Source: Desulfovibrionales bacterium
GTDB lineage: Bacteria > Desulfobacterota > Desulfovibrionia > Desulfovibrionales > Desulfomicrobiaceae
Assembly (NCBI GenBank): GCA_012727715.1
Contig: JAAYGN010000046.1
Coordinates: 1-35,504, forward strand
Reading direction: 5' to 3'
Length of the DNA stretch: 35,504 nucleotides
How positions within the stretch are numbered: the stretch's first letter is position 1; each line of letters opens with the position of its first letter. Positions 2,083-8,306 of the stretch are shown here, one piece after another. A program made the translations under genes and the position numbers. The notes under the pieces are model-generated. The model was not told where the DNA came from. It ran no database searches and saw nothing but the letters and a program-made list of their open reading frames with translations.

Positions 2083-3285
2083 CTATTTTTTTAAAAGCAA
2101 AAAGACGTGCCCCGGTGCCTTGAGATGCCCTGCTAAAAACTCGGCCCTGGCTCCCGCCCCACAAAAAAGATCAAGGCGTGCCTTTTTAATGGCTCCGCCC
2201 CGGTCTTGGGCCAAGGTCAATAAGGCTGTTTCTTGAAGCTGCCCTGTATCTTGACAAGGCAAGGTAGTATCCAAAGCCAAAAGTGTACCCAAAGGCAGAA
2301 ACTTTGCATCAGTAGCCACGCTGACCATGGGCGTCAATATACGGCCCATGGCTCCCAAAGGCCCTTTCTCTGCCATACGAAAAAAAACATAACTGGGGTT
2401 GCTATCAAGTAATGCTCGCATCTGTTTGGGATGTTTACTTAGGTAGTCACGAATACTCTGCATAGACATTTTATCTGGGGTAAGAAGCCCTTGGTCCATC
2501 ATGGTCTTGCCCAAGGAGACATACTCATGACCATTTTTACCCGCATATAAAACATGCACAACTTGCCCATCTGGCAAGCACAAACGACCTGAACCCTGGA
2601 TGTGCAAGAAAAACACATCTACCGCATCTCTGGCCCAGGCAATGGGCTTTTGCATTGTTTCCAAAGCCCCTTGGCCATCAATTTCATGGCGGGTATAAAA
2701 GGGTATGATTTCAGTGCCCCCCTCTTGATACACCAGGGTCTCTCCTTGCCACCGAGGATGAAACTTCCCTAAATCCACTGTGCGCAAGGTTGGGGGCAAC
2801 CCCCAAATGGGAATAGGATAACCTGGGTTTGGCTCAAGGCTTCCTTGAAGTTCAGGCTCATAATACCCAGTAACCAAAAAATCAGGACGCATTTTGTACC
2901 AGAAAAAATCACGTTCCAAAATCAGTGGATCCCGGGCAAGCTGCGGCAACACCCTTTGAAAATACTCCAAAGTCTCTCCAAGTTGTGCCCAGCTGCAACT
3001 GATACCCGCCAAAGGAAAAACTTGGTCTTGATCAGGACGACTACGCACATACAAAAGACTTTCTTCAATACCCCTGGCCCAAGCAGAACCTTGACTCTCT
3101 ATGTGGGCAACCAAGGATTGAATGAATGTTGGATCAGGATTACAGATTTGAGCATAAGGGGTGCCATCTTCAGGAGTAGCAATGAATTGCTCTGGGATCT
3201 GCTCTGCTTCAGATGTACTTTGCTGAACCTTCCCCGCACAAGCACAAAGAGTAAGCACACAAAAAAGATAAAAAAAACGGGTCAC
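2083..3285 (-). CDS. mltA: Membrane-bound lytic murein transglycosylase A (lipoprotein)
   Basis: N-terminal lipobox-like LCVLTLCACAG; GYYEPELQGSLEPNPGYPIPIWGLPP; C-terminal 3D-like region LAQDRGGAIKKARLDLFCGAGARAEFLAGHLK. Confidence 0.9.
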   Translation of the reverse strand: MTRFFYLFCVLTLCACAGKVQQSTSEAEQIPEQFIATPEDGTPYAQICNPDPTFIQSLVAHIESQGSAWARGIEESLLYVRSRPDQDQVFPLAGISCSWAQLGETLEYFQRVLPQLARDPLILERDFFWYKMRPDFLVTGYYEPELQGSLEPNPGYPIPIWGLPPTLRTVDLGKFHPRWQGETLVYQEGGTEIIPFYTRHEIDGQGALETMQKPIAWARDAVDVFFLHIQGSGRLCLPDGQVVHVLYAGKNGHEYVSLGKTMMDQGLLTPDKMSMQSIRDYLSKHPKQMRALLDSNPSYVFFRMAEKGPLGAMGRILTPMVSVATDAKFLPLGTLLALDTTLPCQDTGQLQETALLTLAQDRGGAIKKARLDLFCGAGARAEFLAGHLKAPGHVFLLLKK

Positions 3286-5051
3286 AGGGAACGGTCCTTG
3301 TCCGTAATGCGCGCATCAAAATATTTGCCCACCCCATATTCCATACGGCGGAAAAAGCGGCGGGGATCAGGTCCAATAATTTGCATTTCTGGATGTTTTT
3401 TTTGCATATCCAAGGCAATATGCATTTCCTTGGTGCAGCCTGTGGAAAAAGTTGAATCCTTACCATGCCATTCTGCTGGCACTACTTCGCCCAAAAGCTC
3501 AAAACTTTCCTCAATGTCACTCACGGATTGAAACCGCCAGACATCAATAAATCCGCTGCGTTGTACCCGCTCCCACATATACATGAGGTCATCGCCATCC
3601 ATACCCTGCACAAAATGTTCAGCTGGATTGATAACCATAAGATTCGCATGTCTGGAACGCAGATTGTCAACAAAGGTACTCACCACCTTCAATGCCACTT
3701 GAGTCTGACCAGGAATACTGCCGATAATCGCACTATAAAACATGACCTGCTTACCATCACTCCGGGCTGCGCGCATACGGTTAATGATGGAGTCTGCCTG
3801 AACCCGGATTTGAAACTCTGTGATTTTGGTTACTCGCGATGATTTTTTCTTAAATATAATCTGGTCTTGTCCTACATCATCACGGTATAGACACAAAATA
3901 TCCCGGGTAAATTGATGCGAATTTTGGATTAGACGACGGTGATGCGGATATCCCTTGGCAATAATCAGGTCAGCTTCCTTCCAGGCTCTGGCAAAGGTGA
4001 CACTGGTTCGCCACAAATTAAGCCGCTCACGAGTTCCATCGGAAATAACCAGCAGGGAGTTTTCACGTTGAGCCTTGAGCAGATCATTTTTAGTCATACG
4101 ACTATTTTCGACAAAAAAAGCATCGGACAAGGCTATTTCCAAAGATTTATCATGCTCCACATCCCAAAACACAGGGTTATCCAAAGAATATCCTTCTTTT
4201 AATGCCAAGATAACTTTATGGCCCAAACGCATCAGAACACGGATAAAACGAAGATCAAAAATAATTTCACCGCTACGATCAGGAAGATATAAAATTTTGA
4301 GCTGTCGAAAACTGCTGTCCGGACCCATAACCTGAGTCATTGTTTGGGAAAATTCAGGCCATGGAGTGCACACATGATCAAAAAAACTGGGATTGGAGCG
4401 AACCTGATCAGGTGTTTCCCAAATTTCTGGGCGCAAAGACAAACGGCACAGTCGTGCCAATTCAAGAAGATCTAATTGCCAGCGTAAATCTTTGATGGAC
4501 AAACAGCCCATGGTGGAATCTGGACAGGTATATAAGCATTGATTCATTGTTGGGCTGGACATAAATTCTTGAGCCCGCTTGTTGGCCTGACGTTTTTCTG
4601 CCCGCTGCGGGTCGTGTACACCACTCATGGCCATAAAAATGGTCACCAGCTGCTTAAGAAACCTGGAAGGAATAAGAAAAGGAGCATGCAGCACTCCTTG
4701 TATTTTGTGGCGGGACAAAGAAAAAATTTTACGTCGCGTATAGCGGTCTGTAATGTTAACATGGACAAGGTGCACCAATTGGCGCCATTTTTCTCGGTAC
4801 TCCAAACGCAGTGCTGAAGTTAGACGTGTGTGCAAAAGATTTTCAAACATAGCATCAGAACAGGGCACAAAAACCTGATCATCATCCAAGTCCACCATAA
4901 AGCGTAATTGTTCTACCTGCGCATTTTCACCAGGGTTTACTGTAGGTTCAATATTGTTTTCGGTCATAAAATGAAGCAACCACGCATCAAGAACAGGATC
5001 TTGACCATAACGCAGGTCTCTCACGCTAGAAATTCTGGGCAGTTTGGGCAC
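3282..5051 (-). CDS. DUF89/ARMT1-like domain protein, divergent, with extra C-terminal region
   Basis: 589-aa ORF. ILYLPDRSGEIIFDLRFIRVLMRLGHKVILALKEG...EADLIIAKGYPH aligns by eye with the DUF89 DNAGE...GH.V...K.G...ADL(I/V)I(S/A)KGQGN pattern. Confidence 0.6.
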   Translation of the reverse strand: MPKLPRISSVRDLRYGQDPVLDAWLLHFMTENNIEPTVNPGENAQVEQLRFMVDLDDDQVFVPCSDAMFENLLHTRLTSALRLEYREKWRQLVHLVHVNITDRYTRRKIFSLSRHKIQGVLHAPFLIPSRFLKQLVTIFMAMSGVHDPQRAEKRQANKRAQEFMSSPTMNQCLYTCPDSTMGCLSIKDLRWQLDLLELARLCRLSLRPEIWETPDQVRSNPSFFDHVCTPWPEFSQTMTQVMGPDSSFRQLKILYLPDRSGEIIFDLRFIRVLMRLGHKVILALKEGYSLDNPVFWDVEHDKSLEIALSDAFFVENSRMTKNDLLKAQRENSLLVISDGTRERLNLWRTSVTFARAWKEADLIIAKGYPHHRRLIQNSHQFTRDILCLYRDDVGQDQIIFKKKSSRVTKITEFQIRVQADSIINRMRAARSDGKQVMFYSAIIGSIPGQTQVALKVVSTFVDNLRSRHANLMVINPAEHFVQGMDGDDLMYMWERVQRSGFIDVWRFQSVSDIEESFELLGEVVPAEWHGKDSTFSTGCTKEMHIALDMQKKHPEMQIIGPDPRRFFRRMEYGVGKYFDARITDKDRSL

Positions 5052-5146: not shown

Positions 5147-5512
5147 CTAAACATTACGCAATCGATCTGCAACTAATTGTTCCAAAGCTGGGTCGTCTTG
5201 TAAGGTAGGCAATACAGAAAACTCAATATCCGGATAGCTCTGACGCCAAGTAGCGATTTCAGCAGGAATATCCTTTTCAATATGAACGCCATTGCACAAA
5301 AAGAATTGCATCACCACAATGTGTGTACAGTCCTGCTGCACCAAAGTTGTAATTTGTTCTCTTAAAGTCGGCTGCCCCAAAGAGAAAAAAGCAGGTAACA
5401 CTGGGCCTTGTGCAAGAATCTTCTCTATGCGCCCCACCATGGCCTTGAAGGCAGCCTCTACTTCTTTGCGCCTGCTGCCGTGCCCCAGTACAATAATCCC
5501 TGTTTTGGGCAT
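5147..5512 (-). CDS. cbiX: Small CbiX-type sirohydrochlorin chelatase
   Basis: 121-aa ORF beginning MPKTGIIVLGHGSRRKEVEAAF, with VVMQFFLCNGVHIEKDIPAEI and a C-terminal LPTLQDDPALEQLVADRL. Single-domain chelatase length. Confidence 0.85.
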   Translation of the reverse strand: MPKTGIIVLGHGSRRKEVEAAFKAMVGRIEKILAQGPVLPAFFSLGQPTLREQITTLVQQDCTHIVVMQFFLCNGVHIEKDIPAEIATWRQSYPDIEFSVLPTLQDDPALEQLVADRLRNV

Positions 5513-5583: not shown

Positions 5584-5745
5584 TTAGTGTATATGATCCT
5601 CGTGATCCGGCGCTCCATTAGCCTCATGATTATGTTCATGATCATGAGGATGGCTATGCTTCACCGCACCATGGGTATGTTCATGATCGTGGGAAACTAC
5701 CTTTACCGTGGGCTGACCATGTCCACACGCACAACCTTTGCACAT
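5584..5745 (-). CDS. Small histidine-rich putative metal-binding protein
   Basis: 53 aa from ATG at 5745 with GGGAG upstream: MCKGCACGHGQPTVKVVSHDHEHTHGAVKHSHPHDHEHNHEANGAPDHEDHIH. The listed ORF start at 5898 is probably too far upstream. Confidence 0.7.
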   Translation of the reverse strand: MCKGCACGHGQPTVKVVSHDHEHTHGAVKHSHPHDHEHNHEANGAPDHEDHIH

Positions 5746-5914
5746 AATCATCTCCCTATGCCAACCAGGTAAAATCACATCTTTTTTTGTTGATTGATAC
5801 CTTACCCTAGTATTTCCTTTGTCAAAGGCAAGAAAAATTCTACCTTGCACATCAAGAGTATGCGCGCACAATTCTGCACAACCACCTTCTCTACCCAAAA
5901 CTCATAAAGAATAA

Positions 5915-5942: not shown

Positions 5943-5958
5943 TGGCATGCAACATGCT
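5943..5958 (+). promoter_or_regulatory. Putative sigma54 (-24/-12) promoter
   Basis: TGGCATGCAACATGCT versus TGGCACGNNNNTTGCW: GG-N10-GC spacing exact, 10 of 12 informative positions match. Confidence 0.55.
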
Positions 5959-5968
5959 TGTTGACTGA

Positions 5969-6160
5969 TTAACACAGTGTAATTTCACTTGAAAAAGGAG
6001 TACCTCCAGTGGTGTTGCTACAACACCAACTCCCAATTCCAGCTGTGTGATTGACCGCTGTTATACCGCCCTCCCTCCCTTGAATCTGGTAATGCTTGTA
6101 TCATGCAGGCATTACCTTATACTCCTCACCCCCTGCTTAGTCAGCAGGGGGTTCTTTTTT
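5969..6160 (+). ncRNA. Candidate structured non-coding RNA of unknown family
   Basis: Intergenic, no convincing ORF. Hairpins 6010-6028 (TGGTGTTG-CTA-CAACACCA) and 6088-6116 (GGTAATGC...GCATTACC); possible closing helix AGGAGTA(5996-6002)/TACTCCT(6120-6126); terminator at the 3' end; sigma54-like promoter at the 5' end. Confidence 0.55.
6129..6160 (+). terminator. Intrinsic terminator
   Basis: CCCCCTGCT-TAGTC-AGCAGGGGG followed by TTCTTTTTT. Confidence 0.9.
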
Positions 6161-6332
6161 ACAAATCATAAGTTCTACAGGATATGGTTGTCTTTTCAGA
6201 TAAAAGTTGATTATTTTTATGTTTTGCCCGTGCAAAGAAGTGACTAAAATATTTTTTAACGCAAAGTCCTTGCTCCTCTGCCGACAGACAGTTATTCAAT
6301 AAAAAAATGATCGCAACATTTTGGGGCACATT

Positions 6333-8306
6333 ATGCGCTTTTCAATCCCAGCCTCTATTCGTTTTTGTCTCATTATTCTTATTTTGGTCGCTGTTTTGCC
6401 AGCCTTGGGCATTATGGCTTTTTCCGGCTACACTCTGAAAGAAATTATTGTGGATAATGCAAAAGACAGGACCTTGCGCCAAATTCAAGCCATGGCTGCT
6501 CACCACGAACGTGTCGTTCATAATGCCCAGCTACTTTTGACGTCCTTGTCCAAAGCTCGAGTTATTCAGGAACTGGATGCTGATGCCTGCCAAAATTTGC
6601 TGACCGAAATAGGACAAGGCAACAAAGCATACGCTGCTCTAGCTCTTGCCGATACCCAAGGACAAATTGTGGTCTCTGTACCCCAAGGTGCTTTTACAGC
6701 GATCCAAGACCAAAAATTTTTTTCAGAACTCATGCAACGTATGGATTTTGTCATGGGTGCCTATCATAAATTGCCTGAGAGCCAGCAAGTGGTCATGGAA
6801 TTTGCTCAGCCAGTACTTGATCAAGAAAAAAATCTTGTGGGTGTCCTGGTTGCTTCCTTTGACCTCAGTTATTTTGGACAAATTTTTTCTGATGCACATT
6901 TACCAACAGGCTCGGTTTTTACCCTTACTGATGCTCAAGGTATGCGCTTAACCCGTTTCCCAGAAACTGAAAAATATACCTGGGTGCCAGATTTTGCTCC
7001 CATGCTTAAACATATGACCGGACCACAAGGTGAAGGAACTTTTTTGGAAACAGGCATAGATGGGGTTCTACGATTATACGCCTTTAAACGTCTGCATTTT
7101 GAAAATACCCCCCTGCATCAACTCATGATTCGCGTCGGTCTGCCTGAAGACCTGGCTTTAGCAGAAGCACGGCGAGCTGAACTTCGCAATTTTATCTTCA
7201 TGCTGCTCACCGGTCTTTTTGCCCTGTCCTCTGCTTGGCTGGTGGGTAAATTTGCTATTTTAAACCCCATGCAGCAACTCATTGCAGCTACGGATCTGTT
7301 GGGAGCAGGCAATTTAAAAGCTCGCACCAGACTTGAACACAACCATGGTGAATTGGGACGTTTGGCAGCTGCTTTTGACCACATGGCTGAAAGCCTTGAA
7401 TACCAAGATTATAACCGACGGGTAGCTGAAGAAGAATGTTGCCAACTGAACACAGAATTGGAACAACGCGTTTTAATGCGTACAGCAGAATTGGCCCAAA
7501 CCAATAAAGAGTTACAAACTGCTTTAAAAAATTTGCATCAGGCGCAAGACCAATTGGTTATGTCGGAAAAACTAGCGGCTCTGGGTGGCTTGGTGGCTGG
7601 CATTGCCCATGAAATTAATACACCTGTAGGCGTTGCCTTGTCGGCTACCTCGACCATGGTCGAAAAAACTCGGATGCTGACAGATCTTTTTGTCCAAAGC
7701 GAAATGAAACGTTCGGACCTCACTGCTTATCTGGATGCTTCTCGTGAAGGGATGGAAATGAGTCTGTTAAATCTGCATCGAGCTTCAGATCTGATCCGTA
7801 GTTTTAAAATGGTCGCTGCTGATCAGGTTTCAGGAACGCGACGCAGTTTCAATGTAAAAGAATATATTGATGAGATTCTTTTAAGTTTACGCCCCAAGCT
7901 CAAAAAAACCACCCACAAGGTTGAAGTTGAATGCGATGATGAGCTGGTCATTGAAAGCTATCCTGGTGCAATTTCTCAAATTTTAACCAATCTGATAGTA
8001 AACTCCCTGACCCATGCCTTTGATGCGGAGGAATCGGGATTAATCCGTATTACAGTGAGTACCGATAAAGGGACCATGTGCCTGACCTATGCTGATAATG
8101 GACACGGTATTCCCATTGAAGTACAGAATAAAATATTTGAACCATTTTATACAACTGCTCGATCCCAAGGATCGACAGGGTTGGGACTGCACATAGTGTT
8201 TAATATTGTTCAAAGCACCTTAAAAGGCACCATTACTTTTTGCAGCTCTCCTGAACAGGGAACAACTTTTCAAATATGTATCCCCTTGAATAAAGAGGCC
8301 ATATGA
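6333..8306 (+). CDS. Membrane sensor histidine kinase (extracytoplasmic sensor, HAMP, HisKA, HATPase)
   Basis: Two TM segments; HAMP-like GAGNLKARTRLEHNHGELGRLAAAFDHM; H-box KLAALGGLVAGIAHEINTPVG; N/G boxes LTNLIVNSLTHAF, YADNGHGIP, GSTGLGLHIVFNIV. ORF track starts at an upstream TTG (6321). Confidence 0.9.
   Translation: MRFSIPASIRFCLIILILVAVLPALGIMAFSGYTLKEIIVDNAKDRTLRQIQAMAAHHERVVHNAQLLLTSLSKARVIQELDADACQNLLTEIGQGNKAYAALALADTQGQIVVSVPQGAFTAIQDQKFFSELMQRMDFVMGAYHKLPESQQVVMEFAQPVLDQEKNLVGVLVASFDLSYFGQIFSDAHLPTGSVFTLTDAQGMRLTRFPETEKYTWVPDFAPMLKHMTGPQGEGTFLETGIDGVLRLYAFKRLHFENTPLHQLMIRVGLPEDLALAEARRAELRNFIFMLLTGLFALSSAWLVGKFAILNPMQQLIAATDLLGAGNLKARTRLEHNHGELGRLAAAFDHMAESLEYQDYNRRVAEEECCQLNTELEQRVLMRTAELAQTNKELQTALKNLHQAQDQLVMSEKLAALGGLVAGIAHEINTPVGVALSATSTMVEKTRMLTDLFVQSEMKRSDLTAYLDASREGMEMSLLNLHRASDLIRSFKMVAADQVSGTRRSFNVKEYIDEILLSLRPKLKKTTHKVEVECDDELVIESYPGAISQILTNLIVNSLTHAFDAEESGLIRITVSTDKGTMCLTYADNGHGIPIEVQNKIFEPFYTTARSQGSTGLGLHIVFNIVQSTLKGTITFCSSPEQGTTFQICIPLNKEAI

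Follow-up and report, generated by a model that had tools for sequence, protein, structure and literature searches.

The window, a 35,504-nt stretch of DNA, comes from a MAG-like assembly (2.5 Mb in 271 contigs, 92% completeness) of a Desulfovibrionales bacterium, which we compared with 15 other genomes of its genus (Desulfomicrobium), hereafter the congeners. Between a cobaltochelatase gene and a histidine kinase gene, the window carries features that together resemble a small transcription unit on the plus strand:

5150-5512, minus strand: cbiX (sirohydrochlorin cobaltochelatase), the left neighbour and synteny anchor (Pfam CbiX; congener orthologs 54-65% identical)
5584-5748, minus strand: small His-rich peptide gene, lying between the enhancer and cbiX (congeners have His-rich frames in the corresponding position; no NCBIfam match)
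5845-5881, plus strand: triple half-site TTGCACA-N11-CGCGCA-N6-TGCACAA, enhancer-like, resembling a ZraR-type upstream activating sequence (sole match in the genome; alignment)
5943-5958, plus strand: sigma54 -24/-12 promoter TGGCATGCAACATGCT (best matrix score in the window; matched in position by a -24/-12 box in 15/15 congeners)
5959-6008, plus strand: what remains, in diverged form, of the zraP mRNA leader, with TACCTCCAG (compare CTACCTCCA, common in congener leaders) and an AAAAAGGAG (alignments)
5970-6160, plus strand: predicted RNA of about 190 nt (start placed 12 nt past the GC element; fold z-score; no Rfam family)
6010-6028, plus strand: hairpin 1, TGGTGTTG-CTA-CAACACCA (predicted folds)
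6066-6082, plus strand: exposed C-rich, anti-Shine-Dalgarno-like stretch CCGCCCTCCCTCCCTTG, common to zraP 3' UTRs (alignment)
6088-6116, plus strand: hairpin 2, the homolog of the hairpin between zraP and zraS (alignment, compensatory changes)
6120-6126, plus strand: 3' side (TACTCCT) of a closing helix that pairs with AGGAGTA at 5996-6002 (predicted folds)
6128-6160, plus strand: intrinsic terminator, a 10-bp stem followed by a T tract (terminator scan and fold)
6354-8306, plus strand: Cache-HAMP histidine kinase, downstream, not zraS (domain and ortholog searches)

The -24/-12 motif at 5943-5958 has the exact GG-N10-GC spacing that an earlier note on this DNA had read from the sequence. Scored with a sigma54 matrix made from the 15 orthologous zraP-locus boxes of the congeners, it ranks first in the 35.5-kb window, at 16.5 bits versus 13.0 bits for the runner-up. 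The runner-up itself lies on the minus strand at 3151-3166, within an MltA-domain gene (2083-3285). Upstream of the promoter, the enhancer at 5845-5881, absent from the earlier note, matches perfectly at both outer half-sites and departs at two positions from the middle one of the congener consensus, TTGCACA-N11-TGTGCA-N6-TGCACA, which the congeners themselves show in varying completeness. Within the window, a half-site matrix alone is not specific, whereas the triple pattern is: when up to 3 mismatches were allowed across 22 family genomes, it had a single match in the window's whole genome, at 5845-5881, and its matches in the congeners fell at the zraP promoter with one exception. That exception, in one congener (G001:C2:94392-94428), is a triple site away from the zraP locus; it has 3 mismatches and is a possible further ZraR target.

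The predicted transcript is strongly structured. The minimum-energy fold of 5970-6160 reaches -66.1 kcal/mol (z -6.4; 0/200 shuffles as stable), and the fold z is still -4.9 once the terminator is removed; as background, 60 segments of 191 nt drawn at random from the window had a mean z of -0.35 and a minimum of -3.9. Both hairpins named in the earlier note (6010-6028 and 6088-6116) appear in this fold, as does the long-range closing helix (5996-6002 with 6120-6126) that it had considered possible. Its very strong terminator was found again in the fold and, independently, by a terminator scan (6128-6152 plus T tract). The claim of about 190 nt without a convincing ORF also holds, in that the plus strand here has no ORF of at least 80 aa; a 13-codon GTG ORF is predicted at 6010, with AAGGAG 8 nt upstream. 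In the predicted ensemble, 6070-6081 has a mean unpaired probability of about 0.9 or more, and CCTCC at 6003-6007 is likewise unpaired.

The locus can be traced through cbiX, orthologs of which occur in 15/15 congeners. BLASTN with the element in 40 relatives gave only short, chance-level matches: a recurring 15-mer (query 88-102) was rejected because, where we looked at its loci, it lies within a conserved protein-coding stretch, and several matches around query 148-165 also seem to be coding sequence. Genuine matches did occur near cbiX, in genomes G005 and G011, and these pointed us to the zraP locus. The right-hand side, where the Cache-HAMP kinase stands with an HD-domain response regulator, is uninformative as a guide, since the kinase orthologs of the congeners lie at another locus. 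A CbiX scan of genome contigs for a closer relative returned the congeners and more distant bacteria, none closer.

All 15 congeners share one order: cbiX, His-rich peptide, enhancer, sigma54 promoter, leader, zraP, C-rich stretch with hairpin, zraS and zraR (the last read where the locus stretch examined extends that far). Their sigma54 box lies about 400-460 nt upstream of cbiX, and that of the window 431 nt. The protein encoded after the box has 156-172 aa in 15/15 congeners and is ZraP-like, one member tested having a Pfam Metal_resist domain, a sub-threshold NCBIfam ZraP match and, as best PDB match, the zinc resistance-associated protein 3lay. The activator is named ZraR-like from context; the NCBIfam cut-offs for ZraR and ZraS are not reached. 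ZraP is a periplasmic metal-stress chaperone.

In the window, the congener order holds as far as the promoter, and the zraP frame is missing. The genome has no orthologous zraP, its best ZraP match being a 35% identical paralog on contig C81, and we looked for a remnant of the ZraP protein in the RNA and detected none. The retained parts are similar to their congener counterparts in differing degrees. Relative to shuffles, similarity is modest in the upstream region (z 2.8) and in the leader (z 2.9), and higher in the C-rich stretch (z 4.3; 0/500 shuffles as high) and in the tail at 6062-6118 (z 7.1; 0/500 shuffles and 0/300 window segments as high). In the congeners, the zraP stop codon is followed by a C-rich stretch, typically CTCCCTCCCTTG, then by the hairpin GGCAAAGGCCG..CGGCCTTTGCC and a run of Ts; the window's genome has retained the CCCTCCCTCCCTTG stretch along with the enhancer, the sigma54 box and the hairpin. 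Hairpin 2 lacks its T tract here, and a new terminator begins 12 nt on.

Both arms of hairpin 2 have been rewritten, yet 12/12 aligned pairs are standard, four of them with a compensatory change (0/500 shuffles as high); a 13-pair fold gives five compensatory pairs, and the signal is lost when the pairing partners are slid. Changes in both arms with pairing kept count for a retained structure, and as all of them are in the window's genome they amount to one lineage's worth of evidence. Conservation in relatives, which the earlier note had proposed as a check, is thus found for the -24/-12 box and the hairpin at 6088-6116; for hairpin 1 we looked for a counterpart in relatives and saw none, and the closing helix AGGAGTA/TACTCCT occurs only in the window's genome.

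With the sum of this evidence, we consider it very probable that the RNA unit descended from a zraP transcription unit. The locus is positionally homologous to the zraP locus of the congeners; it has lost zraP, kept the enhancer, promoter, C-rich stretch and hairpin, and has a new terminator. The zraSR genes and rpoN are intact elsewhere in the genome. The zraS (65%) and zraR (73%) orthologs lie on contig C193, where transporter genes adjoin them and no zraP stands in front, and the C-terminal part of zraR, with the DNA-binding helices, is the same as in the congeners. ZraR of Escherichia coli is a sigma54-dependent regulator with links to zinc and to the response to envelope stress, and it activates zraP (PMC7657598).

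As the enhancer and promoter have been kept, the most economical interpretation is that the signal which formerly gave the ZraP mRNA now yields this RNA. In the explanation we favour, the zraP reading frame was lost in a Desulfomicrobium relative, leaving a stand-alone structured RNA. Metal or envelope stress would act through the ZraS-like kinase on the ZraR-like sigma54 activator, which, bound at 5845-5881, would switch on sigma54 RNA polymerase at 5943-5958; the product would be an RNA of about 190 nt, ending at 6160, that retains the C-rich stretch and hairpin of the ancestral mRNA 3' part. Sequences like the C-rich 6070-6081 and CCTCC are complementary to Shine-Dalgarno sites, and the RNA would most likely act in trans, its exposed CCCUCCCUCCC and ACCUCC loops masking ribosome-binding sites, as a stress-response arm comparable to CpxQ from the cpxP mRNA. 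That the unit is transcribed, that it depends on ZraR, that its product works as an sRNA and that it does so by base pairing are our inferences. That the unit is a functional regulatory RNA under ZraR and sigma54 seems to us probable by a modest measure, and we lean to the same degree towards the explanation as a whole, a zraP unit that shed its reading frame to become a ZraR/sigma54-controlled, structured, trans-acting sRNA. The earlier note's independently transcribed sRNA under an enhancer-binding protein survives in part: the unit is terminated, structured and probably sigma54-dependent, and its likely activator can now be named as ZraR-type. Its origin, as the remains of a protein gene's transcription unit, was missing from that account.

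A complement search of the genome for targets of the C-rich stretch returned 10 near-complements, one of them the element itself, versus 5 in the control, and no convincing ribosome-binding-site target; the best of the other near-complements was ruled out, as it lies within a reading frame. Hfq (PF17209) was found in none of 22 Desulfomicrobiaceae genomes, and five control genomes, for example those of E. coli and Bacillus subtilis, matched. An Hfq-type sRNA like CpxQ is thus unlikely, and any pairing action of the RNA would proceed without Hfq or via another helper.

The main rival to a functional sRNA is a decaying relic: zraP would have been lost recently, the promoter, enhancer and 3' element would be still uneroded, and any transcript would be functionless. 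We regard this as doubtful but serious. The loss of zraP is not datable, so the conserved parts may stem from the earlier protein-coding state; moreover, the ZraP frame is gone to the point that a protein remnant is undetectable, the leader has diverged, one enhancer half-site is degraded, hairpin 2 lacks a T tract of its own, and the sRNA reading covers one genome, a MAG. Decay sits less well with a hairpin altered in both arms in which every pair is kept, with an intact sigma54 box, with a strong terminator and compact fold (z -6.4), or with zraSR genes that are intact despite having no zraP nearby. The fragmentation of the MAG into 271 contigs also admits an assembly artefact, a deletion or chimeric join that removed zraP and brought in the Cache-HAMP kinase, and identical ATTTTTTAACGCAAA words on the 5' side of both the window's kinase and the C193 zraS suggest that a rearrangement junction may be near. 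Such an error is nevertheless very unlikely, given that the stretch from promoter to C-rich sequence does not read as zraP cleanly cut short, a new terminator is present, hairpin 2 no longer has the congener sequence, and the C193 zraS has its own, different upstream region.

Two further readings concern the nature of the transcript. It might encode a very small protein, or be a dual-function RNA, through the GTG ORF at 6010, which the Shine-Dalgarno-like AAAAAGGAG at 5992-6000 precedes; we consider this quite unlikely, as the ORF overlaps hairpin 1, the predicted ensemble has the AGGAG base-paired within the closing helix, and the frame has neither a counterpart in relatives nor similarity to ZraP. 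The other reading, that the RNA belongs to a known sRNA family or a 6S-like one and has diverged from it, is extremely improbable. The Rfam search that the earlier note had suggested gave two tRNAs as the only gathering-level matches in the window and no family at gathering score for the RNA, so that "unknown family" is correct as regards Rfam. The best sub-threshold match, a weak resemblance to suhB/mmgR (RF00519; 21.9 bits versus 41 needed), covers only a generic hairpin plus the terminator, and descent from the zraP mRNA accounts for the parts of the RNA. Qrr, GlmY and 6S RNA are absent from the Rfam matches up to E 5; nothing points to the divergent 6S RNA that the earlier note had kept in play, and its remark that the RNA does not resemble Qrr is borne out.

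The favoured reading, a ZraR/sigma54-controlled sRNA derived from the zraP unit, has several partial counterparts. The Vibrio Qrr RNAs are sigma54-dependent sRNAs, and the window's unit shows what that class would lead one to expect (a sigma54 promoter, a terminator, and structure without a long ORF); it differs in originating from a protein gene's transcription unit and in having no Rfam match. GlmY of enterobacteria is an sRNA with a sigma54 promoter and upstream activating sites of an envelope-related two-component regulator (QseF/GlrR; PMC6075780). The window's RNA would share that arrangement and has no match to GlmY in Rfam, a different enhancer and different neighbours. With the zraP mRNA of the ZraSR sigma54 regulon, the unit has in common its position by cbiX, the sigma54 promoter, the upstream enhancer and the downstream C-rich stretch and hairpin, and differs in that the zraP reading frame is absent, zraSR has moved away and the terminator is its own.

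The periplasmic stress proteins CpxP and ZraP are related to each other, and the comparison with CpxQ, from the cpxP 3' UTR, is one of arrangement rather than of any sequence relation shown. The 3' element of CpxQ is reported to be more conserved than the coding part of cpxP (PMC9438474; PMC4817254). The congener zraP loci are alike in this: the C-rich stretch with hairpin has a mean identity of 80.5% versus 67.1% for the zraP frame and is the better conserved in 89/105 congener pairs, figures with an upward bias, since conserved words served to anchor the segment. Unlike the window's unit, which has no reading frame and belongs to a family in which no Hfq was found, CpxQ is cut from its mRNA by RNase E and uses Hfq. 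If functional, the unit would be a clear case of an mRNA becoming a stand-alone sRNA gene, and 15 related species would still show the ancestral state; it would also suggest that the zraP 3' end carries a regulatory RNA of its own, a CpxQ counterpart in a separate family of sulfate reducers in which Hfq was not found. In a broader proposal, a stress-response mRNA would have shed its coding sequence and become a gene for a regulatory RNA, with enhancer, sigma54 promoter and 3' element preserved, and this element would already be an sRNA in all Desulfomicrobium zraP mRNAs, in bacteria without Hfq. We put this forward tentatively, as possible rather than probable. Even as a relic, the locus shows a sigma54 unit after the loss of its protein, and it supplies a defined ZraR-type enhancer with one candidate inducible promoter.

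Additional observations concern the zraP loci themselves. The word ATTTTTTAACGCAAARTCC is near-identical at 6251-6269 of the window, before the Cache-HAMP kinase, and at 4842-4860 on the minus strand of the C193 locus (L148), before zraS; its core was found in no other locus examined. It may be a trace of rearrangement, left at the former junction where zraSR parted from the RNA unit, or possibly a shared control element. Across the 15 congener species (L062-L076), the stem GGCAAAGGCCG/CGGCCTTTGCC of the zraP-zraS hairpin shows almost no variation, and the terminators after zraR vary; such constancy exceeds the need of a plain terminator or attenuator. The zraP 5' leaders of these species also conserve CTACCTCCA, or a near variant of it, ahead of the Shine-Dalgarno site, which it could mask, or it could bind a regulator.
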